Source: Planctomycetales bacterium ZRK34 (GTDB lineage Bacteria > Planctomycetota > Phycisphaerae > Phycisphaerales > Zrk34). From it: a stretch of DNA of 64,000 nt. The stretch covers positions 124,001 to 188,000 of the forward strand of contig CP050848.1 in the NCBI GenBank assembly GCA_014873095.1, in the 5' to 3' direction. Position numbers and translations under genes: made by a program. Of this stretch, positions 1 through 37,366 are shown piece by piece. Each line of letters opens with the position of its first letter. Position 1 is the stretch's first letter. The notes under the pieces are model-generated. The model worked only from the letters and a program-made list of their open reading frames with translations. It did not search any database and had not been told where the DNA came from.

Positions 1-642
1 GCTGGCGAAGGTCCAGTTTTCGCGCTTCGTCAGATCGTCGCCCACGTGCCCGCGCAACAACACCGGCGCCAGCGTCGACCAGTCGATGCGCCCGCTGGTG
101 TAATGCTCCATCGGGACATACACGCAGCCGTTGGCGTAGACCACGTTGTGGGCGTGGCCCGTCCAGATCTGTCCCTCGGTCAGCGCGGCGGGTTTTGACC
201 AGGTTTCACCGCCGTCTGTGGAACGCGTGATCTTCAGATCACCGGCGTGACCGAGGATGTAGACATCGTCGCCGACGACAAACGGCGTGCAGTGAAAGAT
301 CGTCAGGTCGGCGGTGTGTTTCCACGTCTTGCCGCGATCGTCGGAGATGAACACCTTGCCCTGATGATCCCAGCGATCGCGAGGCCGCCGGCCTTTGGGC
401 CCAGGCAGCTTGTCGACGCCAATCCCGCCGAGATCGATCGTCGCGATCAACCGCCCGCTCGGCAGGCGAAGCAGACCCGGCGAATAGGTGTACACATCCT
501 TCGGCGAGGGAGAACGATACACCACCACGAAATCCTGCGCCAGCGGCTTGACGCCCTGCGCCGAAACGTCGGCGCCCATCACAAACAACAGACCGATCGC
601 ACACAAAATAACGGCTGGGCGCCCAGGGAAGCTATACATCAT
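1..642 (-). CDS. Sialidase-like (BNR/Asp-box) secreted glycosidase, partial
   Basis: Only the first 214 codons are visible; the frame is still open at the window edge. A signal peptide covers about residues 1-29 (hydrophobic core ILCAIGLLFVMG, then SAQG). The mature part begins a beta-propeller with two Asp-box motifs, SDDRGKTW (100-107) and STDGGETW (141-148), about one blade apart, as in exo-alpha-sialidases. The start ATG (640-642) overlaps the TGA of the pseudopilin gene by four bases (ATGA), so the two are translationally coupled and this is the last visible gene of cassette 1. Sialidases release terminal sialic acids from glycans; the catalytic residues are outside the visible part, so another BNR-propeller enzyme is possible. 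Confidence 0.8.
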   Translation of the reverse strand, partial: MMYSFPGRPAVILCAIGLLFVMGADVSAQGVKPLAQDFVVVYRSPSPKDVYTYSPGLLRLPSGRLIATIDLGGIGVDKLPGPKGRRPRDRWDHQGKVFISDDRGKTWKHTADLTIFHCTPFVVGDDVYILGHAGDLKITRSTDGGETWSKPAALTEGQIWTGHAHNVVYANGCVYVPMEHYTSGRIDWSTLAPVLLRGHVGDDLTKRENWTFAS

Positions 643-1412
643 GGTTGAATAAATCCTTTGCGCAAAGCATTGCTGTATCCGCTGACGTCGGGCTCGTACT
701 TATCCTGTCCACCGATCAGCAGGCCGAACAGACCACTGGTGATCTCCGCCTGGGCCCGGTACTCGACATGCCCGTCGAGAAAGGCGAAGTTCTTGCCTTC
801 GTGCGGTCCATCGGAAATCAGCAGGCCTGAGTCAAAACGCATCCATCCGCTGAACGCCGCATTGGCCTCGGTGGAATTCGCTGAGGTCACCATATGCGGG
901 CGCAACACGCCCGAACTGTGATTCTGCACATCGCAGCCTAATGTTGCAACCATGGCAACCCGGCGGAAGCTACGACCACCGAAGTGGGTGACCACGCCGC
1001 TGGCGACGTAGCTGTATTCGTTGTCCTCGGTGGGAATAAATGTCGTTGAATCTTCATCGACACTGGGACATTGCCACAGGCGCGATCCGCCGGGCGCATC
1101 CGCCAGGTAAGGCTTGATGCTGTAGATCCAGTTGGGCCGACTGTTGATGTTGGTCGCCGGCTCTGCGGCGATCCAATGCAGATTGCCGGTGGGATAAGTT
1201 CCGCCGTCAGCCGGCTGGTAGGGAAAATGTTGTTGGTAGTCCATGCCGTACGCGATCGCTCCGAGGCTGATCTGGTGCTGCTGGGCTCCGCAGGCGACGC
1301 GCTTGGCGACTTCCCGGGCCTGTTGAAGCGAAGGCAGCAGGATCGCGATCAGCAGTGCAATGATGCTGACCACAACCAGCAGTTCGATCAGGGTGAAGGC
1401 ATTTCGGCGCAT
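639..1412 (-). CDS. Type II secretion-like pseudopilin (prepilin N-terminal methylation domain)
   Basis: 257 aa. The N-terminus is a textbook class III prepilin signal: basic MRRNA, cleavage before F6, Glu at +5, then the hydrophobic helix [24 protein letters not shown] and the usual QQAREVAKR continuation. The C-terminus carries the planctomycete DG motif (FAFLDGHVEY, about residues 207-216). Such proteins should be cleaved by a prepilin peptidase and assemble in a pseudopilus or stay as membrane-anchored surface proteins; planctomycetes encode many copies whose exact role is unknown. It sits in cassette 1 after two surface-protein genes and is coupled to the sialidase gene by an ATGA overlap. 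A double hairpin lies 14 bases upstream of its start codon. Confidence 0.92.
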   Translation of the reverse strand: MRRNAFTLIELLVVVSIIALLIAILLPSLQQAREVAKRVACGAQQHQISLGAIAYGMDYQQHFPYQPADGGTYPTGNLHWIAAEPATNINSRPNWIYSIKPYLADAPGGSRLWQCPSVDEDSTTFIPTEDNEYSYVASGVVTHFGGRSFRRVAMVATLGCDVQNHSSGVLRPHMVTSANSTEANAAFSGWMRFDSGLLISDGPHEGKNFAFLDGHVEYRAQAEITSGLFGLLIGGQDKYEPDVSGYSNALRKGFIQP

Positions 1413-1476: not shown

Positions 1477-2379
1477 TTATCCACGGCGGCGGCGCACCAG
1501 CACCATGGCGCCGAAGCTCAGAGCTACGATGGATGCCGGCTCAGGCACCACGGCCGTCGCCGCGGCGTAGTGTGCAGCCACGCGCGTGCTGCTGAGTTCA
1601 CCGCCATACACAGCCAGTTCATCAATCAACCCGTTGTAGGCGTTGGTGAACCCGCTGGCGTTGTTCTGCTTGCCGATGCTGTCGATCAGCGATGTGGCGC
1701 CGCTGGGCGCGTAAGTCGACGAGCCGAAGCTGACACCGATCGTGCCGGCGGACGAGCCGTTGACATAGAGCTTGATCTGATCGTTGGCGAAATCGAGCAC
1801 GCCGACGAAGTGCGTCCAGGTGTCAGTCGAGGCGTATGAGATCGGCCCGGTCGTGAACGAATCAGTGCCGGTGCTGCGTCCAGCCACGCGGAGGACGGTG
1901 TCGGCCGATCCACTGCCTGCTGAGTTCTGCAATGCGACCGAAAGCCCGGTGCCGGTCTCGTTGAGGAACGAGTTGAACAGCAACGCGACGCTGCCGTCGG
2001 CTGGCAACGACGAGGCGTTGAACCAGAGTTCTGCGGTGATCGCTGAGCTTCCGCTCAACGCGCTGCGCAGGGTGGTGCCCAACTCGACGCGTGCGTTGGA
2101 GCCGGTGAAGTCGCCAGAGGTTCCACCGATCGTGCCGGGCGTGTCAGACGACAGAGCGGTCGAGCCCTGGTAGGTTCCGTCGTTGGTCGCGGCGGTTGTG
2201 CCAGAGTTCAACGCGGTCGAGCCGTCGCTGCTGGATGCGTCTTCGAAACGCCAGTAGGCAACGGGGCTGTCGGCGAGCACCTGGTCCTGGTAGGCGGCCT
2301 GTGCCGTTGACGCGCCTGCTACAAACAGCAACAGCAGCGCGAGCTGACAAACCGTGCATTGATGACAATCAAAGTTCAT
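1477..2379 (-). CDS. LamG-domain PEP-CTERM surface protein
   Basis: 300 aa. A signal peptide (about residues 1-28, ending STAQA) is followed by one concanavalin A/LamG-like jelly-roll domain (about 30-270) that begins SPVAYWRFED and ends GLIDELAVYGGEL, both hallmarks of LamG_3 domains. The C-terminus is a PEP-CTERM sorting signal: VVPEPAS, a hydrophobic helix, then RRRRG. Such proteins are exported, processed by an exosortase and displayed on or released from the surface. A strong ribosome site (AAAGGAGA) precedes the ATG. It follows the NHL protein gene by 15 bases in cassette 1. The LamG domain resembles the N-terminal half of the cassette 2 surface protein at 34939-36555. Confidence 0.9.
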   Translation of the reverse strand: MNFDCHQCTVCQLALLLLFVAGASTAQAAYQDQVLADSPVAYWRFEDASSSDGSTALNSGTTAATNDGTYQGSTALSSDTPGTIGGTSGDFTGSNARVELGTTLRSALSGSSAITAELWFNASSLPADGSVALLFNSFLNETGTGLSVALQNSAGSGSADTVLRVAGRSTGTDSFTTGPISYASTDTWTHFVGVLDFANDQIKLYVNGSSAGTIGVSFGSSTYAPSGATSLIDSIGKQNNASGFTNAYNGLIDELAVYGGELSSTRVAAHYAAATAVVPEPASIVALSFGAMVLVRRRRG

Positions 2380-2394
2380 GAATCATCTCCTTTT

Positions 2395-3366
2395 TCAGTT
2401 GCGATTGGATCGGCGGCCAAGCAGCAGAACACCGAACAGGCTGAGGCCCGCGGGCAAAGCGGCCGGCGTCGGAATCGTCACGATCAGCAGGTCAAGCGGG
2501 CGGCCAAGCGACTGAGCGGGCCCGAAGCTCGTTCCAGCATTGGAGTTTGACACGTCATACTTGTAAACGAGCTGATCCGTAAATCCCGCCAGGTACACAT
2601 CGCCGTTATCAGCAACGGCGACACCGACGGAAAATTCATTGCCGGTGGAAAGTCCCGGGATATTGGCGACGAACGTGCCGTCAGTCTGACGCTCGCGGAC
2701 CAGAAAGTTGGTGCCGCCCCCTTCCACGGAGTGGTAGAGATTGCCGTTGGAGCCGATCGTGATTCCCTGGGTGTTGGTCTGACCGGTGGCCAGCACGTCG
2801 ATCAGATCGCCCGAACTGTCGAACTTCAGCACGCGGGTGTCGCCACGGTCGGCCAGGTAGAGATTGCCGCTGGAATCAAACACGATGCCGCGCGGGACGT
2901 TGAGTGTGTCATCACCGGCGTTGTTGCCCGGATCACTGAAGGTATTGGTGACAAATGTCGAGGCGGTGGTGGCGCCGGTGACCTTGTAGATCTGCTTCGT
3001 GCCGAAGGCATCGGAGAAATACACGCTGCCGTCCGGTGCGACCGCGAGCATGTCAACGCGGGTCGTGCTGGAACTGGTGAAATATGTGTCGACGAAGGAG
3101 CCGCCGAGCGTGTACCGATTGATGGCATTGTTGCCGCTGCTGCTGGTGGTGTCGGCAATGTAGACGTATCCGTCGGTCGGGTTGTACGCCAAGCCTCCGG
3201 GTTTGTAGCCGGTAGCGAACGTTCCGAGGAAGTTGCCGTCCAGATCGTAGCTGAGCACGCGTTCGTTGGTGGTGTCACCGACGAGCAACATTTGAGCAGC
3301 CATGAGCGGGCCGGCCGACAGCGTCAGCACGCATACGAGAATCATCAGACGAGTTGTACGAAACAT
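2395..3366 (-). CDS. NHL-repeat secreted protein with IPTPxALPAGL C-terminal sorting tail
   Basis: 323 aa. The start at 3366 is preferred over 3372 because the AAAGGAG ribosome site abuts the upstream ATG but lies six bases from this one. A signal peptide (about 1-22, ending LMAAQ) precedes an NHL-type beta-propeller covering about residues 25-295, with blade motifs such as GYVYIADT, GSVYFSDAF and NLYLADRGDTRVLKF. The C-terminus reads IPTPAALPAGL, a hydrophobic stretch, then GRRSNRN. This is a PEP-CTERM/VPLPA-like sorting signal of a variant type. The propeller is visibly homologous to the C-terminal half of the FecR-type protein encoded immediately upstream, which suggests that the pair interact or compete for the same ligand. 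Confidence 0.88.
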   Translation of the reverse strand: MFRTTRLMILVCVLTLSAGPLMAAQMLLVGDTTNERVLSYDLDGNFLGTFATGYKPGGLAYNPTDGYVYIADTTSSSGNNAINRYTLGGSFVDTYFTSSSTTRVDMLAVAPDGSVYFSDAFGTKQIYKVTGATTASTFVTNTFSDPGNNAGDDTLNVPRGIVFDSSGNLYLADRGDTRVLKFDSSGDLIDVLATGQTNTQGITIGSNGNLYHSVEGGGTNFLVRERQTDGTFVANIPGLSTGNEFSVGVAVADNGDVYLAGFTDQLVYKYDVSNSNAGTSFGPAQSLGRPLDLLIVTIPTPAALPAGLSLFGVLLLGRRSNRN

Positions 3367-3380
3367 GAGCATCTCCTTTA

Positions 3381-5039
3381 TTAATCAGACTTAGAAATCG
3401 GATCCAGGCGAAGCAGGTGGGTCGGGCCTTCGAGGCCATGACCACCATGTGCAAAATCACTGATCTGTCCATTGGGGTCTATGCGTATCAGGCGTCGGCT
3501 GCGCCAATCGCTGATCACCGCGCTGCCGTCTATCAGCACGATGCCGTCGATCAGAAACGGTGATGAGGAACTATCCGTATACACAGCCGCCGGACGCACT
3601 GGTCCGGGCGAGATCAACCACAGACCGGTCTGCCGGCTCGGGTTGGCCGTGACCAACACGCGGTCGTGATCAACGACAAGACCTTGTGGTTTATTCAATC
3701 GAGCGACGATACCGACAAACCGCCCCGGTTGGGTGGATTGCGGGCCCTCGAACTTCAACACCATGCTGCGTTCACGATCGCTGACCAGCAGCGCCCCGGA
3801 AGCGTCGAACGCCAGCCCGCGAGGCAGTTCCAACTTTTGCGACGGCGCATAGGTTTTGGGGATAAACACACGCGCCGCGCCGTCTTCGACTCGATAAACC
3901 TGCTGCGAATCGAAGGCATCGGTGAAATACACCCGGTCGTCGGGGCCAATCGCCACGGCGTCGGGTTTGATCTGCGGGTCGCCCGCGCACACCACCTCGG
4001 CGACGCGCCCCTGTGAATTCAACAGCAGAATGCGGCCGTTTGATTCAGCTTCGGCCAGGTAGATCATGCCATCGGTGCGCTGGGCCATGCCGCCGGGCTT
4101 GCTGAGCGGACGACCGGCCAGATCGCCTTCGACGAACGCGCCGCAGTACATGCCATCTTCACCAAAAGCCATCACACGCCCGGTCTCCGAGTCGCTGACC
4201 AGCACGCGCGACAACGCCAGAATCTCAACCTGGCGGCTGTTCATCGACAGCCTCGCCAGTTGACCCGCTTTCACCTGCGGCAGGTTGATCGCTGATCGAC
4301 CGGACGATTCCCGGTGCAGCGCCACGGCGCCTTCAACGACCCGTACCTCCGCGATTCCATCACCAGTCAGCACGATGGAAAAACGTGTGCCCAGGTCCAC
4401 CACGCGCGACCCATCCGGCAGTTCGACGCTGAACCCGGCGGCTTCTTCACGCACGTAAGCTTCGAGCCTGCCGGCAAGCAGGCGGCCCTGATTGGGACCG
4501 ATCAATTCAAACGAGCACGGGCCGATCAGGTCCACCACCGCCCCGGACTTGAACATGACCTGCGAAGTGCCGGCCGTCAGTTGGATCGGGCCGATCGGCA
4601 ACTCCTGCCCCAGCCGAACCGTCGCGGATCGACCGGCGAAAACCGCGTCAGCCGAAGCGTCCGAGAGCATTGCCACGGCCGTGGTCGGTGCGGGTTTGAC
4701 ATTCGAGTCCTTCGACCCGGCATCCAGCAACAACCATGCGGTGACTGCGATGATCATCGCGGCGGCGATCGCGGCGGCTGAGTACCAGACGCTTCGGCTT
4801 CGCCTCAGCGTCGGCGTGGTATCCATATCGAGGTTCAACTTCGAGCGTTGAGCCGTCGCCGCGGCTGACAGCGATTCACGCAGCACGCGTCCTTCGATGC
4901 AGAATCTGACGAACTGATCGCGCGCCGCTGAATCATCATGCAGCATCGCATTGAGCTGATCGCGCTCCGCGGGTGTCGACTGCCCGTCGAGATGACGGTC
5001 AACCAGGTACTCCAGCGTCATGTTCACGGGTTCAGTCAT
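3381..5039 (-). CDS. FecR-type anti-sigma-like membrane protein with C-terminal NHL propeller (cassette 1)
   Basis: 552 aa. Domain order: a cytoplasmic N-terminal segment (1-83) with the Zn-less anti-sigma-like pattern LVDRHLDGQSTPAERDQL; one transmembrane helix (84-107); an extracytoplasmic FecR domain (about 135-262) containing VDLGTRFSIV; and an NHL propeller (about 275-545) with RVYFTDAF and LPRGLAFDASG. Its ATG overlaps the sigma-factor stop codon by four bases, the usual arrangement for a sigma/anti-sigma pair. By analogy with FecR systems it should hold the sigma factor and release it after an outside signal. The propeller mirrors that of the downstream NHL protein. Codons 75-85, just before the membrane helix, are supplied by a REP-like palindrome (4785-4815). 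Confidence 0.88.
   Translation of the reverse strand: MTEPVNMTLEYLVDRHLDGQSTPAERDQLNAMLHDDSAARDQFVRFCIEGRVLRESLSAAATAQRSKLNLDMDTTPTLRRSRSVWYSAAAIAAAMIIAVTAWLLLDAGSKDSNVKPAPTTAVAMLSDASADAVFAGRSATVRLGQELPIGPIQLTAGTSQVMFKSGAVVDLIGPCSFELIGPNQGRLLAGRLEAYVREEAAGFSVELPDGSRVVDLGTRFSIVLTGDGIAEVRVVEGAVALHRESSGRSAINLPQVKAGQLARLSMNSRQVEILALSRVLVSDSETGRVMAFGEDGMYCGAFVEGDLAGRPLSKPGGMAQRTDGMIYLAEAESNGRILLLNSQGRVAEVVCAGDPQIKPDAVAIGPDDRVYFTDAFDSQQVYRVEDGAARVFIPKTYAPSQKLELPRGLAFDASGALLVSDRERSMVLKFEGPQSTQPGRFVGIVARLNKPQGLVVDHDRVLVTANPSRQTGLWLISPGPVRPAAVYTDSSSSPFLIDGIVLIDGSAVISDWRSRRLIRIDPNGQISDFAHGGHGLEGPTHLLRLDPISKSD
4785..4815. repeat. REP-like palindrome inside the FecR coding sequence
   Basis: A 31-base palindromic sequence with GACGCT (4788-4793) and AGCGTC (4807-4812) as arms. 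Its reverse complement matches the intergenic sequence 11948-11978 at 28 of 31 positions. More degenerate relatives are at 47893-47921 and 58799-58824. Here it encodes residues 75-85, the linker just before the transmembrane helix of the anti-sigma-like protein. Confidence 0.7.
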
Positions 5040-5560
5040 GAGGTTGCATCACGGGAATGTTCACGGCGCAGGCAGTCCGACAGCGCCCGCCGCGCCCGGC
5101 TCAGCGCGATGTATGCTGCCTGGGGTTTACGATTGATCGCCGACGCCAGGGCCTCGCCGGTCAGCCCCTGGGCAAAACGCAGTTCGATCAGCTTCCGGGC
5201 GTATGGCGTCAGCTTGCTGAGGCAGTGCCGCAGCGTGTCGGCCCAGTCGACCGCCCGCTCGGCGTCGTAGCGTTTCCAGTGCGATTCCAGTGCGTCCAGC
5301 ACCTGGGCATCCAGCATATGCGGCGAATTGCCCCGCTTGCGATGCTGAGCCAGCGCCTCGAATCGAGCCGCCCGACGCAGCCAAAGCAGCAGATGCTCGG
5401 CACTGTCGATCTCGTCGAGCTTCCGCACCGCCGCCAGGGATACTTCCTGCAGAATGTCCTCGGCCACATGTTCATCCGGCAGAATCGCCAGAATGTACGC
5501 CAGCAGCTTGGTGCGATCGCGCAATAGGGTTTGCACTAAAATATCGTGATCAATAGGCAT
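5036..5560 (-). CDS. ECF-like RNA polymerase sigma factor (cassette 1)
   Basis: 174 aa, of the small sigma-70 type common in planctomycetes and verrucomicrobia. Region 2 spans about residues 5-75, with DEHVAEDILQEVSLAAVRK as the core-binding and -10 helix. Region 4 spans about 108-165, with LTPYARKLIELRF and a helix-turn-helix around GLTGEALASAINRKPQAAYIALSR. It is the first gene of cassette 1 and overlaps the FecR-type gene by four bases, so it is presumably controlled by it. It probably transcribes its own cassette and surface genes; its targets cannot be read from sequence. The 72-base gap upstream is AT-rich and holds a motif shared with the cassette 2 sigma gene. Confidence 0.88.
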   Translation of the reverse strand: MPIDHDILVQTLLRDRTKLLAYILAILPDEHVAEDILQEVSLAAVRKLDEIDSAEHLLLWLRRAARFEALAQHRKRGNSPHMLDAQVLDALESHWKRYDAERAVDWADTLRHCLSKLTPYARKLIELRFAQGLTGEALASAINRKPQAAYIALSRARRALSDCLRREHSRDATS

Positions 5561-32813: not shown

Positions 32814-33386
32814 ATGCCATCATCAGATCGACATGACGACGCCATGCCCGCCGGTGATGATCGCCCGGCACGATTCATGAAGCTGTTTAATCGGCACAGC
32901 CGCCAGATCTATGCCTACATTCTCTGCCTGGTGGGTAACACGACCGACGTCGACGATTTGCACAGCGAAACCAATCTGGCGATGTGGCAGAGTTTCGACC
33001 AGTTTGATGAGTCTGATCCGCAATCCGATTTCGCCGCCTGGGGTCGCACCATCGCCCGGTATCGCGTGCTTCGATATTTCGACAGTCGCAAGACTGCCGC
33101 GCGTCAATTCAGTACGCAGACGATCGAAGCGCTGTCGCAAGAGGTCGAACATATGGCGCATACGGACCGGGTTCATGAGACGCTCGGCGAGTGTCTTCAA
33201 AAGCTGCCGCCTGAGCAGTACGAACTGATCCGCTGTCGCTATCTGCAGGCCATCCACGCGCGCAAGATTGCTGAGCAATTGGGGATTTCCGTATTCACGC
33301 TCTACAAGCGCCTGGCGCACATCCGTCAGCAGTTGCTCAACTGCATCCGCCGCACGTTGAACCTCGACGCGGAGGGCAGGCTGTGA
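32814..33386 (+). CDS. ECF-like RNA polymerase sigma factor (cassette 2)
   Basis: 190 aa, ATG 32814 with AAAGGAAA upstream. Region 2 covers about 20-90 (FMKLFNRHSRQIYAYILCLVGNTTDVDDLHSETNLAMWQ) and region 4 about 120-180 (LQKLPPEQYELIRCRYLQ, then helix-turn-helix ARKIAEQLGISVFTLYKRLAHIRQQL). It is the same small planctomycete/verrucomicrobial sigma type as in cassette 1, but the two are clearly diverged, so they are not a recent duplication. A four-base overlap (GTGA) couples it to the FecR-type gene. It likely drives cassette 2 after release by that protein. The gap upstream to the divergent old yellow enzyme gene is 251 bases. Confidence 0.9.
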   Translation: MPSSDRHDDAMPAGDDRPARFMKLFNRHSRQIYAYILCLVGNTTDVDDLHSETNLAMWQSFDQFDESDPQSDFAAWGRTIARYRVLRYFDSRKTAARQFSTQTIEALSQEVEHMAHTDRVHETLGECLQKLPPEQYELIRCRYLQAIHARKIAEQLGISVFTLYKRLAHIRQQLLNCIRRTLNLDAEGRL

Positions 33387-34942
33387 GCCCCGACTCCACG
33401 ACACCCCTGGCTGAGTGGATCACCGCCCAACGGGAAGACGCGTTGAGTCACGAAGATCATGCGGCGCTGGACGCCCTGCTTCGTGATGACGCCGAGGCGC
33501 GTCGACAGTACATCCTTCTGGCCATGATCGACACCTCGTGTCAGATGCGATTCGCATCGGATGTTGACTTGGATGTCGCAACAGCCCACGACTATTCGGC
33601 TGGGAACATCATCAATCGTCGCGATGAACGTTTCTGGAATGCCCCCGCGCTCAAGACGATCGCTGCGTTGGCGGCGGCGGTGTTGATCATCGCGACTGTT
33701 GGCTTCGTGGTGCTCAGCAAATCACCACCCACCCCCGGGACGGTGGATCCGCTGCCCATGGTCGCCACGATTGTTCGTTGCGAGGGCGCACGCTGGTCAT
33801 CGACGCCTCTGCATGAAGGGCAGGATTTGCGACCGGGTTACATCGCCATCGATGCCGGCGAGGTCGAAGTGCTCTTTGCCGACGGCTCGATGGTCACGCT
33901 CAGCGGGCGCAGCGAGTTGGAACTGACCAGCACCAACACCGGCTACCTGAGCCTGGGCACCTTAACCGCCACGAGCTTGCCGGGTTTCACGATCACCGCG
34001 CCGCATGGTGTTCGCGTGGTGGATCTGGGGACGCGATTCAGCGTTCAGGTCGGCGCGACTGGTGAAGCGACGGTGGGCGTTTGGGACGGCTCGGTGCGAG
34101 TGTATCGCGATGCAACGGACAGCGGTGTCGTGCTGACGACCGGCGACATGGCGCGGCTCTACGGGGGCCGCGCCGAGTTGAGCCGCGCCGATCGATCCAC
34201 CCCAGCGGCTTACGCTTCGGTTATTGAAGGATTCGATTATCGACTGGACACCACGCTGAGCGGCCAGGGCTTTCTGGGCAACGGGTTTACCGGCCCCTGG
34301 CGCGGCCCGACGGCGTTCAGCGTGACGGCCGAGGGCCAGCACAACATGGTCGGCGAGGTTCACGGAGCAGCCGGCAACGTGTACATCGATCGAACGCTGG
34401 TGTCGCCGATCGATTTTGATCATGACGGCGTGTACTACATGAGCTTTGTGATTCGCGATGAGGATGTCGATGCCCGGGACGAGTATTTCTGGGTGGGTCT
34501 GCAATCCTCCGGCGATGCCGACCCGACGTGGGGAATCAAGGCGGCATTCGGCCTCAGCAGCAACGAGCACGCGATGCTGGCGATCAACAGCACGCTCAAC
34601 GGATACATAGTCGGCCCGGCGATAGCGACCGATCGCTGGCAGCGTTATCTGTGCCGGGTTCAAACACGCGCCGAGGGGGCTGATGAAATCTCGTTGCTCA
34701 TCCTCGACGCTGAAGAAACCACGCCCCGCGATGAGCCGCTGGAATGGACCATGACGCTTTCGCGACCCATCACCGGAATCGCCGACGAGTTGCACATCCA
34801 GGCAGGCCCCAAAACGCGAACGCGTTTCGATGATATTCGAATCGGCGCGACGCTTGATTCGGCCCTGCCTTCACATCGATCCGAATCGCCCCGGAGTGAG
34901 AGTGACAACCATCCGCCATCCCAAAAGGAGATTTCAGAATGA
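33383..34942 (+). CDS. FecR-type anti-sigma-like membrane protein with C-terminal lectin-like domain (cassette 2)
   Basis: 519 aa from GTG 33383, which overlaps the sigma-factor TGA. Domains: cytoplasmic segment 1-88 (EWITAQREDALSHEDHAALDALLRDD); transmembrane helix about 89-112; FecR domain about 125-275 with VEVLFADGSMVTLSG and VVDLGTRFSVQVG; then a beta-sandwich (about 285-505) with EGFDYRLDT, GVYYMSFVIRD, EYFWVGLQ and GPKTRTRFDDIRIGAT. The last domain matches residues about 290-515 of the surface protein encoded next, over its whole length. It is presumed to hold the sigma factor inside and sense the surface outside. Its stop overlaps the next ATG by four bases, so the first three genes are translationally coupled. 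Confidence 0.88.
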   Translation: MSPDSTTPLAEWITAQREDALSHEDHAALDALLRDDAEARRQYILLAMIDTSCQMRFASDVDLDVATAHDYSAGNIINRRDERFWNAPALKTIAALAAAVLIIATVGFVVLSKSPPTPGTVDPLPMVATIVRCEGARWSSTPLHEGQDLRPGYIAIDAGEVEVLFADGSMVTLSGRSELELTSTNTGYLSLGTLTATSLPGFTITAPHGVRVVDLGTRFSVQVGATGEATVGVWDGSVRVYRDATDSGVVLTTGDMARLYGGRAELSRADRSTPAAYASVIEGFDYRLDTTLSGQGFLGNGFTGPWRGPTAFSVTAEGQHNMVGEVHGAAGNVYIDRTLVSPIDFDHDGVYYMSFVIRDEDVDARDEYFWVGLQSSGDADPTWGIKAAFGLSSNEHAMLAINSTLNGYIVGPAIATDRWQRYLCRVQTRAEGADEISLLILDAEETTPRDEPLEWTMTLSRPITGIADELHIQAGPKTRTRFDDIRIGATLDSALPSHRSESPRSESDNHPPSQKEISE

Positions 34943-36555
34943 CACGGTTCAACCCTCAACGCCCGTTTGCCACGGCCTGCTTCGGCGCGCTGCTCGGCCT
35001 GACCCTGACCACCGGCGTCGCCCAGGCGGATGTGCTGACTTACTCACAGCTTGCCGCGCTGGATTCAAACATCATCGTGCAGTACTCCTTCGACGGGGCC
35101 ACCACGACCGAGCGCCAGGAGGACAAAACCTCCGGCACGAACGATCTGATTATCAAGACGCAAGGCTCCGGCAGCGGGGCCGCCATCTCCTACGGCGCGG
35201 GTTTTGACGGGTCCAGCGACGCCGTCTCTCCCCAACGGATCAACGGCTCAAACGGGGCGGCGTTCTCGACGAGCGCCGCAATCAATACGACTGCAAACAC
35301 CGCTTACTCCTACGAAGCCATTCTGCAGGTGCCGGATTTTAACGACAACGGCACAGGCTATATTTTTGCCACGCGATCAAGCACGGCCACCCGGGATTAC
35401 TGGAGTGCGCACCAGCACGCTGGGAGCGGCGCAGATAGCGTCTTCACCACATCGGGCGACAACTTCACCAACTCCTCCAACATCATTCCAAGCGTCACGG
35501 GCGGCAGCTGGTATTACGTCGCGGTGACCAAGGAACTGGTCGCAGGCAACACGCAGGTCAACACATGGATGGCGAACCTGTCCAACGGCGACACCGCCCT
35601 CACCCAGGTCGCGACAAATCAGACCGTGTCGGGCAGTTTCCAGAACAACATCGCCATGGGCGTCGGGATGGTCAACAGCATCGGCAGCTATGTAGAGGCT
35701 TTTGGCGGTTCGATCGACGAAGTCTCGCTGTACAGCGGTCTTCGCACACAGAGCAACTTCCAGACCTCACTGGATCGCATCAACGCCTCGCCGACACTGG
35801 TCTATGAACCGTTTGACTACAGTGCCGGTGATCTGAACACCAACAACAGCAGCGCGCTCGGCCTGACCGGCGCCTGGAACGGGAACACATCGTTCGACGT
35901 CACCGCCGGAAGCCTGAACTACCCTGCCTCGTCCCCGTTGAGTTCCACCGCCAACAAAGCCGAGCTGTCCGGCAGCAATGGCACCAACCCGCGCATCGAC
36001 CGCACGATGAGTACCCCGATCAGCTTCGATGAAGCGGGTGTCTACTACGTCAGCTTCCTGATGAATGACACGAATGCCGGCGGCAGCGAGTACTTCTACG
36101 TCGCGCTGCAGGACTCAACCGCCCCGGATCAGACCTGGGACATCACGGCCGCCTTCGGCATCAGCAGTTCCGAAACCATGCTGCTGACGACCGTCGACGG
36201 TCAGACCGGCTACACAGCGGGCGGAGCCATCCCGACGGGGCAGGACGTGCTGGTGATTGGCAAGATCATCACCACTGCAAGCGGCAACGACCAGGTCTTC
36301 ATGTCGGTCTACGACTCATCGGAAACCGTTCCCCTTACTGAACCGATCAGTTGGGACCTGTCCAAGTCGGTTGAGATCACCGGCCTGGCCGATCAGTTGC
36401 TGCTGATGTCCGGGCCTGACACGCAGACCCGCGTTGATGAAATCCGCATCGGCACCACGTTCAACTCCGTCGCCGTCGCCGCCATCCCCACCCCCACGGC
36501 CCTGCCGGCGGGACTGGCCCTGCTAACGATGGCGGCGATGCGCCGTCGTAAATGA
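34939..36555 (+). CDS. LamG plus lectin-like surface protein with IPTPxALPAGL sorting tail (cassette 2)
   Basis: 538 aa, ATG 34939 with AAAAGGAGA upstream. Signal peptide about 1-30 (ending GVAQA). A LamG-like domain (about 45-280) runs from [14 protein letters not shown] to [15 protein letters not shown] second beta-sandwich (about 290-512) has [28 protein letters not shown] and [16 protein letters not shown], matching the outer domain of the upstream FecR-type protein. The tail is [23 protein letters not shown], the same variant sorting signal as the NHL protein of cassette 1. The protein joins in one chain what cassette 1 encodes as two (mirror domain and LamG). Probably exported and attached or released at the surface; the ligand is unknown. 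Confidence 0.87.
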
Positions 36556-36573
36556 CCACCGTCTGCACGCGAC

Positions 36574-36593
36574 CGTTCGGCGAGAGCCGAACG
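36574..36593 (+). repeat. Perfect hairpin between surface-protein and pseudopilin genes (cassette 2)
   Basis: An 8-bp perfect stem (36574-36581 with 36586-36593) and GAGA tetraloop, 19 bases after the surface-protein stop codon and 38 bases before the pseudopilin start. It occupies the same intercistronic position as the double hairpin of cassette 1 and may serve as a terminator/attenuator or processing site. No T-run follows. Confidence 0.6.
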
Positions 36594-36631
36594 ATCGCTT
36601 TGGCCAACCGCTCATCACTCCGGAGCAATCG

Positions 36632-37366
36632 ATGCAGGATCGACACGATCAAACAGGCTTCACGCTGATCGAACTGCTGGTGGTCGTTTCCATCATCGCC
36701 CTGCTGATCGCGATCCTGTTGCCATCGTTGTCGGCCGCCAGGGAACAGTCGCGCCGCGTGGCCTGCGGGGTGAACATCCGCCAACATCTGACGATCGCGC
36801 TGACCGAAGCGGTCGCCGACAAGGGCAAGCTCCCCGACTGGCACAACGACTCCGGCCGCTGGGGTACGGATTGGACCTACCCCGTCACTTCACCGGTCGA
36901 TAAGAACTATCCGCACATCTTCGACCTTGATGCGCGCAACTATCTGCTTGAAAAACTCAAGACCACGCGCGACATGTACTACTGCCCTTCGAATCATGAC
37001 GAATGGTGGAACCGCGACGACTTCTGGCAGGACAGCGCGTACACCTCCGGCTGGGGCTATGTCTACTTCGGCGCCGCCCCCAAGGGACACGCCAGATGGA
37101 ATTACCTCGCCGGCACGAAAGAGCCTTTCGCCATCAACCTCCATGATCGGCCCATGTACGACATCCTCTGGACGGACCTGAACCGTCAGATCAACGGCGT
37201 CGGATGGTTTCGCTTCGACCCGGCCCGCGGGGCCAACCACTTCGATGACCTGACCGGCAACCCCGTCGGCGCCAACAACGGCTACCTTGACGGCCACGTC
37301 GAATGGGTCAACTTCGCCCGAATGAACGCCGAGATGACACGCCCGAATTGGAAGTTCTGGTGGTAA
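36632..37366 (+). CDS. Type II secretion-like pseudopilin (cassette 2)
   Basis: 244 aa, ATG 36632 with CGGAGC upstream. Class III signal: MQDRHDQTG, cleavage before F10, Glu at +5, then [24 protein letters not shown] and [18 protein letters not shown]. The rest is a globular domain with many aromatic residues ([39 protein letters not shown]) and the DG motif [12 protein letters not shown] near the end, which is also LDGHVE[YW] in the cassette 1 pseudopilin. Expected to be processed by a prepilin peptidase. Position in the operon, after the mirror-type surface protein, matches cassette 1; the next gene follows 48 bases later. Confidence 0.92.

Follow-up and report, generated by a model that had tools for sequence, protein, structure and literature searches.

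In the SigI/RsgI systems of Clostridium (Acetivibrio) thermocellum, membrane anti-sigma factors carry outer CBMs that bind polysaccharides (PMC4711584), and their outer domains resemble products of the regulon, as illustrated by the GH10 domain of RsgI6, which is 57% identical to the regulon's Xyn10D, binds xylan and shows very little activity (PMC4711584). RsgI is cleaved within the membrane by RseP (PMC12203970), and several paralogous sigma/anti-sigma pairs serve different polysaccharides in the same organism. The locus described here lies in a window of 64,000 nucleotides (positions 124001-188000 of the genome of Planctomycetales bacterium ZRK34, a single contig of 5.71 Mb) and resembles this arrangement both in the likeness between outer domain and product and in the multiplicity of paralogous pairs. 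It differs in its protein families, a TIGR02989-like ECF sigma factor being paired with a FecR-type anti-sigma protein; in the matched product, which the operon itself encodes and which in most cases is an exported protein of exosortase type without known enzymatic domain; and in number, with about 95 cassettes against 8. Pfam gave no match to the RsgI N-terminal domain in the FecR-type protein of the locus (P0002), and the paired sigma factor has regions r2 and r4_2 and TIGR02989 similarity. The functional mark of RsgI-like proteins, an outer domain homologous to a regulon product, appears here as homology to the product of the adjacent gene.

Signalling of the FecI/FecR type offers another comparison, as the locus has a homologous FecR-like domain, an ECF sigma gene directly upstream, one transmembrane helix and a FecR domain that probably lies outside, but its cassette has no TonB-dependent receptor and its FecR protein bears an additional outer domain. 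Genome-wide, four Plug-domain proteins and one STN match stand against about 95 FecR-type proteins, and classical Fec signalling was rejected on these grounds. With PEP-CTERM/exosortase sorting (PMC1569441) the locus has in common cargo tails of PTPAALPAG-like or PEP type, with a hydrophobic helix and a basic end, and the genome encodes two exosortases (TIGR02602 proteins above cut-off); that system, however, describes export, and the literature searched showed no connection to FecR-type anti-sigma proteins that mirror their cargo. Finally, the exported NHL protein of the locus (P0001) is weakly similar to the ScyE/ScyF NHL proteins of scytonemin clusters, the ScyF model being named for a PEP-CTERM protein, but its scores are well short of what the families require (36.6 of 350 bits and 26 of 80), and it stands in another gene context.

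Literature searches for FecR together with PEP-CTERM, and for FecR, LamG, a sigma factor and Planctomycetes, returned no report, which is weak evidence because most subscription papers and all preprints lay outside the search. The paper that combines FecR, ECF sigma factors and Planctomycetes does not describe mirrored cassettes, and the Kiritimatiellales papers that were searched contain no sigma-factor or prepilin cassettes. RsgI is a precedent for this kind of logic; what appears to be new lies in the families of protein involved, in the pairing within an operon, in the exosortase cargo and in the scale.

Organization of the window cassette

The cassette runs along the minus strand in the order sigma, FecR-type, NHL, LamG/PEP-CTERM and prepilin-like, neighbouring genes overlapping or lying no more than about 65 bases apart, and comprises the following features:

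5036..5560, minus strand: ECF sigma factor, TIGR02989-like (Sigma70_r2 and r4_2 in Pfam; TIGR02989)
3381..5039, minus strand: FecR-type anti-sigma protein P0002 with outer NHL propeller, 552 aa
4725..4787, minus strand: predicted transmembrane helix of P0002, residues 85-105 (hydrophobic stretch and AlphaFold2 helix)
4245..4679, minus strand: FecR-like beta domain of P0002, residues 121-265 (alignment, paralogue search, AlphaFold2 model)
3405..4229, minus strand: outer NHL propeller of P0002, residues 271-545, without sorting tail (BLASTP, alignment, AlphaFold2, PDB matches)
2395..3372, minus strand: exported NHL propeller protein P0001, 325 aa
2473..3297, minus strand: propeller of P0001, residues 26-300 (AlphaFold2 and PDB matches)
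2398..2466, minus strand: PTPAALPAG-type sorting tail of P0001, a hydrophobic helix and basic end (sequence; model helix 308-324)
1477..2379, minus strand: second cargo, a LamG domain with PEP-CTERM tail (Laminin_G_3, 1e-16; TIGR02595)
639..1412, minus strand: prepilin-like DUF1559 protein, the final gene of the core cassette (N_methyl and SBP_bac_10 in Pfam)

The sigma gene adjoins the gene of P0002 with a 4-bp overlap, and its product scores 118 bits against TIGR02989, slightly below the cut-off. AlphaFold2 gives P0002 a helical region at the N-terminus, a single predicted transmembrane helix, the FecR-like beta domain and the propeller (mean pLDDT 82.6), and P0001 a propeller of the same kind between a signal-like N-terminal helix and the sorting tail (mean pLDDT 80.1). 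PF04773 does not match P0002 up to E 0.1, and the protein is counted as FecR-type because it is homologous to paralogues above the Pfam FecR threshold, of which the genome has 34; sampled paralogues align with it across the entire N-terminal half at 26-46% identity, one paralogue in a second NHL cassette aligns over the full length at 33%, and the FecR-like beta domain is kept across about 95 paralogues. The PEP-CTERM model TIGR02595 matches the LamG cargo, not P0001, whose C-terminal motif, hydrophobic helix and basic end nevertheless have the features of exosortase sorting in a genome that encodes exosortases.

After or beside NHL-containing cassettes, at genome positions C1:123329-124642, 1476718-1478364 and 1485235-1486467, lie proteins whose ends resemble one another (F..(V/L)(S/K)(N/D)FR...); the one that was scanned gave weak BNR-repeat matches, and the group may mark a common substrate.

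The NHL pair

The sequence-only reading from which this work set out held that the outer half of the FecR-type protein aligns with the NHL protein encoded downstream, and this is borne out by BLASTP (34% identity over 170 aa, E 2e-26), with all three motif pairs that it quoted inside the match, and by a multiple alignment that spans the entire propeller. The NHL repeat PF01436 is above cut-off in both proteins (E 7e-11 in P0001, 4e-8 in P0002), AlphaFold2 predicts a propeller with good confidence in each (residues ~26-300 and ~271-545, respectively), and in Foldseek searches of the PDB both match the six-bladed designed Pizza6, NHL-domain and LRP6-type propellers. The likeness exceeds the generic NHL signal, in that P0001 scores 74 bits against its neighbour's propeller and 20-25 bits against NHL proteins elsewhere in the genome.

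The same reading had proposed a best reciprocal match as the sign of co-evolution between the two proteins, and this is absent in both directions. The P0002 propeller scores 97.1 bits against the NHL half of a cargo encoded in a different cassette (genome 1488765-1490348), slightly more than the 95.9 against its own neighbour (82 and 74, respectively, in HMMER), its nearest relative is the other FecR propeller at 190 bits, and the best matches of P0001 sit in other cassettes. Taken literally, then, the observation that was to overturn the idea, an NHL protein closer to the FecR propeller than its neighbour, is provided by the cargo of the other cassette; the pairing itself stands, as a weak example of mirroring in which the own partner is not the best match.

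Six closely related propellers occur in the genome, within three cassettes. Cassette two (~1.481-1.485 Mb) contains the FecR-NHL paralogue that aligns over the full length, together with two NHL cargos; its neighbour, cassette three (~1.487-1.490 Mb), has a LamG-NHL cargo and a FecR protein that carries the LamG part. In the tree the two FecR propellers are grouped weakly (support 71/67); a tree constrained to unite the propeller of P0002 with that of its own cargo is worse by 11.8 log units (p-AU 0.042), and the corresponding constraint on the FecR and the cargos of cassette two is clearly rejected (p 8e-7). A YF(T/S)DAF..(Q/K)Q(V/I)Y motif is present in both FecR propellers and P0001 and absent from the other three. 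The tree therefore suggests that the divergence of sensor from cargo propellers probably predates that of the two cassettes and that they were kept as a pair, so that the window pairing is probably old and co-duplicated; private co-evolution of the window pair is unsupported, since the reciprocal match fails and the tree groups the FecR propellers.

Between the two NHL cargos of cassette two lies a 94-aa ORF (genome C1:1481660-1481944; L083:5661-5945, minus strand) in which a damaged prepilin-like start (FTLIERFMVVRIIARLTAI) is fused to an end nearly identical to the C-terminus of the neighbouring FecR protein (APTHVLLMPIENPFTEKE), a piece apparently left behind by a local duplication.

Mirroring across the genome

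A search with P0002 returned about 95 paralogues, all of whose neighbourhoods were taken, with genes called by our own codon-score procedure, on which gene starts rest. The order is nearly everywhere sigma, FecR-type, exosortase-type exported protein or proteins, and prepilin; among the 93 cassettes with a usable outer domain, an exported gene is present in 89, a prepilin in 85 and both in 84. Each FecR outer domain was compared with about 680 non-FecR genes from all neighbourhoods, a match being defined as E<1e-3, with E-values that refer to small pools.

The suggestion that the anti-sigma protein carries a copy of what the adjacent gene encodes proved to extend well beyond this one pair: in 43 of 89 cassettes the FecR outer domain is homologous to its own downstream exported protein, which is the top match in 40. 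Shuffled cassette pairings (2000) gave on average 1.7 matches and 0.64 top matches, with maxima of 8 and 5, and widening the comparison to genes within 8 kb on any side gave 45 mirrored cassettes, 42 of them top-ranked. For 38 of these 43 outer domains, no other FecR outer domain scores as high as the own cargo, although the N-terminal halves of the FecR proteins are ~40% mutually identical; the outer domain therefore follows the cargo and not the FecR family. Identity in mirrored pairs ranges from 27 to 62% and nearly the entire outer domain is covered in most; where a cargo has two domains, it is usually the C-terminal one, beside the sorting tail, that is matched. Examples of mirrored pairs are genome 528691-530250 with 527911-528687, at 62% identity, and 1804707-1806170 with 1806167-1806907, at 58%. 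That hydrophobic tail is found in 103 of 119 cargos and in none of the 95 FecR proteins. Of the roughly 95 cassettes in the genome, about half thus encode a FecR-type protein whose outer domain is homologous to the exported protein of the same cassette but lacks its tail.

A second complete cassette in the window (32814-37366) also follows this pattern, its FecR outer domain matching the next gene at 41% over 227 aa, rank 1, through residues 288-510 of the exported protein, a domain without Pfam family:

32814..33386, plus strand: sigma gene (ORF directly upstream of the FecR gene; assigned by position)
33383..34942, plus strand: FecR-type protein, mirrored (FecR PF04773)
34939..36555, plus strand: exported protein mirrored by the FecR protein, with PTPTALPAG-type tail and no Pfam family
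36632..37366, plus strand: prepilin-like protein

In the remaining 46 of 89 cassettes, HMM-HMM comparison of the outer domain with its own cargo scored no better than with random cargos. The set is therefore bimodal, these cassettes are unmirrored at the sequence level and not merely under the sensitivity of BLAST, and the copying of cargo is not obligatory.

Five unmirrored FecR proteins (genome C1:2818707, 3860599, 2519449, 1677929 and 944807) have a common C-terminal outer domain of ~170 aa with a GADYVQT-like motif, which is also present in many Verrucomicrobia FecR proteins (several of L166-L200), gave no Pfam match in the one member scanned, and is possibly the ancestral outer domain of the family. 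The mirrored partner is sometimes a prepilin-type protein with a LamG-like end and not an exosortase-type cargo, as at genome C1:3506131-3507054 and at L230 of a second genus (G005), where the prepilin start was observed.

Another question concerns the age of the copies. Across the twelve strongest mirrored pairs, identity is 65-79% at second codon positions and 43-67% at third positions, which indicates that the copies are old, with third positions near saturation, and that both members have been conserved as proteins. The same near-saturation rules out that the similarity stems from recent duplication or gene conversion alone. Comparison with G005 orthologues gave a mixed picture, some FecR outer domains being closer to each other than to the cargos (3510497) and others closer to their own cargo than to the orthologue (528691: 62% own, 53% orthologue).

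Occurrence in other genomes

The relatives compared, partly draft genomes, include one in the family of the source genome (G003), one in another family (G029) and the second genus, G005. In G005, 14 of 42 sampled cassettes are mirrored, 10 of them top-ranked in a pool that includes the genes of the source genome. Mirroring as a PVC-wide rule is refuted by the other genomes: G003 has weak or partial matches in 2 of 18 FecR genes, G029 has 2 of 17 mirrored, the named PVC genomes have 3 of 45, and G001, G008 and G002 have none of 16. Shuffling over the named-genome loci together with G005 and G003 gave 1.7 (maximum 7) against 19 observed. In G003, prepilins with LamG-like ends follow FecR genes (L243).

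Some cases outside the source genome involve enzymes. One Verrucomicrobiaceae MAG (L173) encodes a FecR-type protein with a complete GH6 domain at its end (E 1e-85), which is 80% identical to the GH6 of the adjoining GH6-CBM2-GH5 cellulase (L173:9659-15456). The NRDGSALASNGEL stretch, which holds the GH6 catalytic acid, is the same in both GH6 domains; the sensor copy may thus still be catalytic, unlike the nearly inactive GH10 of RsgI6. In Rhodopirellula rubra and strain CA13 (L198, L196), the LamG region of the FecR protein shares 42-50% identity with the LamG region at the C-terminus of a GH78-type alpha-L-rhamnosidase encoded ~2 kb downstream.

Proposed mechanism and alternatives

Pfam families on the 93 outer domains comprise LamG (23), NPCBM (5), HpiC1-like (4), CBM96 (3), F5/8C (2), NHL (2), CBM4_9 (1) and L-type lectin (1), which makes the named outer domains mostly lectin-like or carbohydrate-binding as judged from their families. 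Among the genes that follow the cassettes are those for sulfatases (7 of 60 proteins), BNR proteins, fucosidases, GH39, sialate esterases and DUF1549/1553 proteins, and site-2 proteases are encoded in the genome.

We consider it somewhat more likely than not that the cassettes are ligand-sensing ECF sigma/anti-sigma switches, in which the outer domain would sense the ligand of the cargo. The sigma factor would be held by the cytoplasmic N-terminus of the FecR-type protein until the outer domain binds the extracellular ligand, most often a polysaccharide, that the exported protein binds or processes; binding would alter the FecR domain, intramembrane proteolysis by a site-2 protease would free the sigma factor, and the freed sigma factor would activate its own cassette. 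This last step is an assumption, because a simple k-mer count found no conserved promoter motif upstream of the sigma genes. By copying the cargo's recognition domain as a sensor, each cassette would respond to the ligand that its product handles, which in the window cassette would be whatever the NHL propeller of P0001 binds. NHL propellers are not typical sugar binders, and the sugar reading is therefore weakest for the window pair; candidate ligands for such propellers are glycans, peptides and other surface proteins.

The sequence-only reading had left two roles side by side for the mirrored domain, sensing of a shared ligand and feedback on surface assembly through a shared partner. The former is favoured by the carbohydrate-binding outer domains, the GH6 and rhamnosidase cases and the RsgI precedent. 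The latter, in which the outer domain is bound by the cargo's partner or assembly, or by the cargo itself, and reports the amount of cargo assembled at the surface, is to our mind fairly unlikely: in most cassettes the mirrored partner is no enzyme but an exported, anchored protein, the genome has two exosortases, and tail-less FecR copies would compete with cargo for a partner, but the GH6 cellulase and the LamG of the rhamnosidase are substrate-handling domains that need no assembly feedback, the mirrored folds are mostly lectin-like, and self-association is without support.

It is improbable that mirroring is a by-product of duplication, with recombination between neighbouring genes copying a cargo domain onto the FecR gene to no regulatory purpose. 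Adjacent genes with a common domain recombine easily, the degenerate 94-aa piece with its FecR end sequence lies between the NHL cargos of cassette two, and half of the cassettes are unmirrored; the copies, however, are old, conserved at the protein level and intact in dozens of cassettes and two genera, where neutral copies would decay. That the window propellers are simply members of a common repeat fold, adjacent by chance, is very hard to credit, even though NHL repeats are widespread and the P0002 propeller has a better match than its neighbour, given the gap in bit scores to non-cassette NHL proteins, the motif that among the six cassette propellers only P0001 and the two FecR propellers have, and the recurrence of the arrangement in the second NHL cassette and, with other folds, in 43.

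Within the ligand-sensing switch, free and tethered copies of the cargo domain might compete for one ligand, such that a cassette would be on only while ligand exceeds exported protein, a ratio meter whose rule the NHL propellers would extend beyond carbohydrates; we regard this elaboration as speculative and rather doubtful.

Implications

The ligands of most anti-sigma factors are obscure, and here the genome itself points to a likely ligand for dozens of them, namely whatever the neighbouring exported protein handles. Uncharacterised planctomycete signalling proteins thereby become testable sensor-product pairs, and mirroring offers a route for matching surface proteins to ligands. More broadly, the cassettes suggest that the RsgI logic of clostridia arose independently, in roughly tenfold number and with a different sigma/anti-sigma family.
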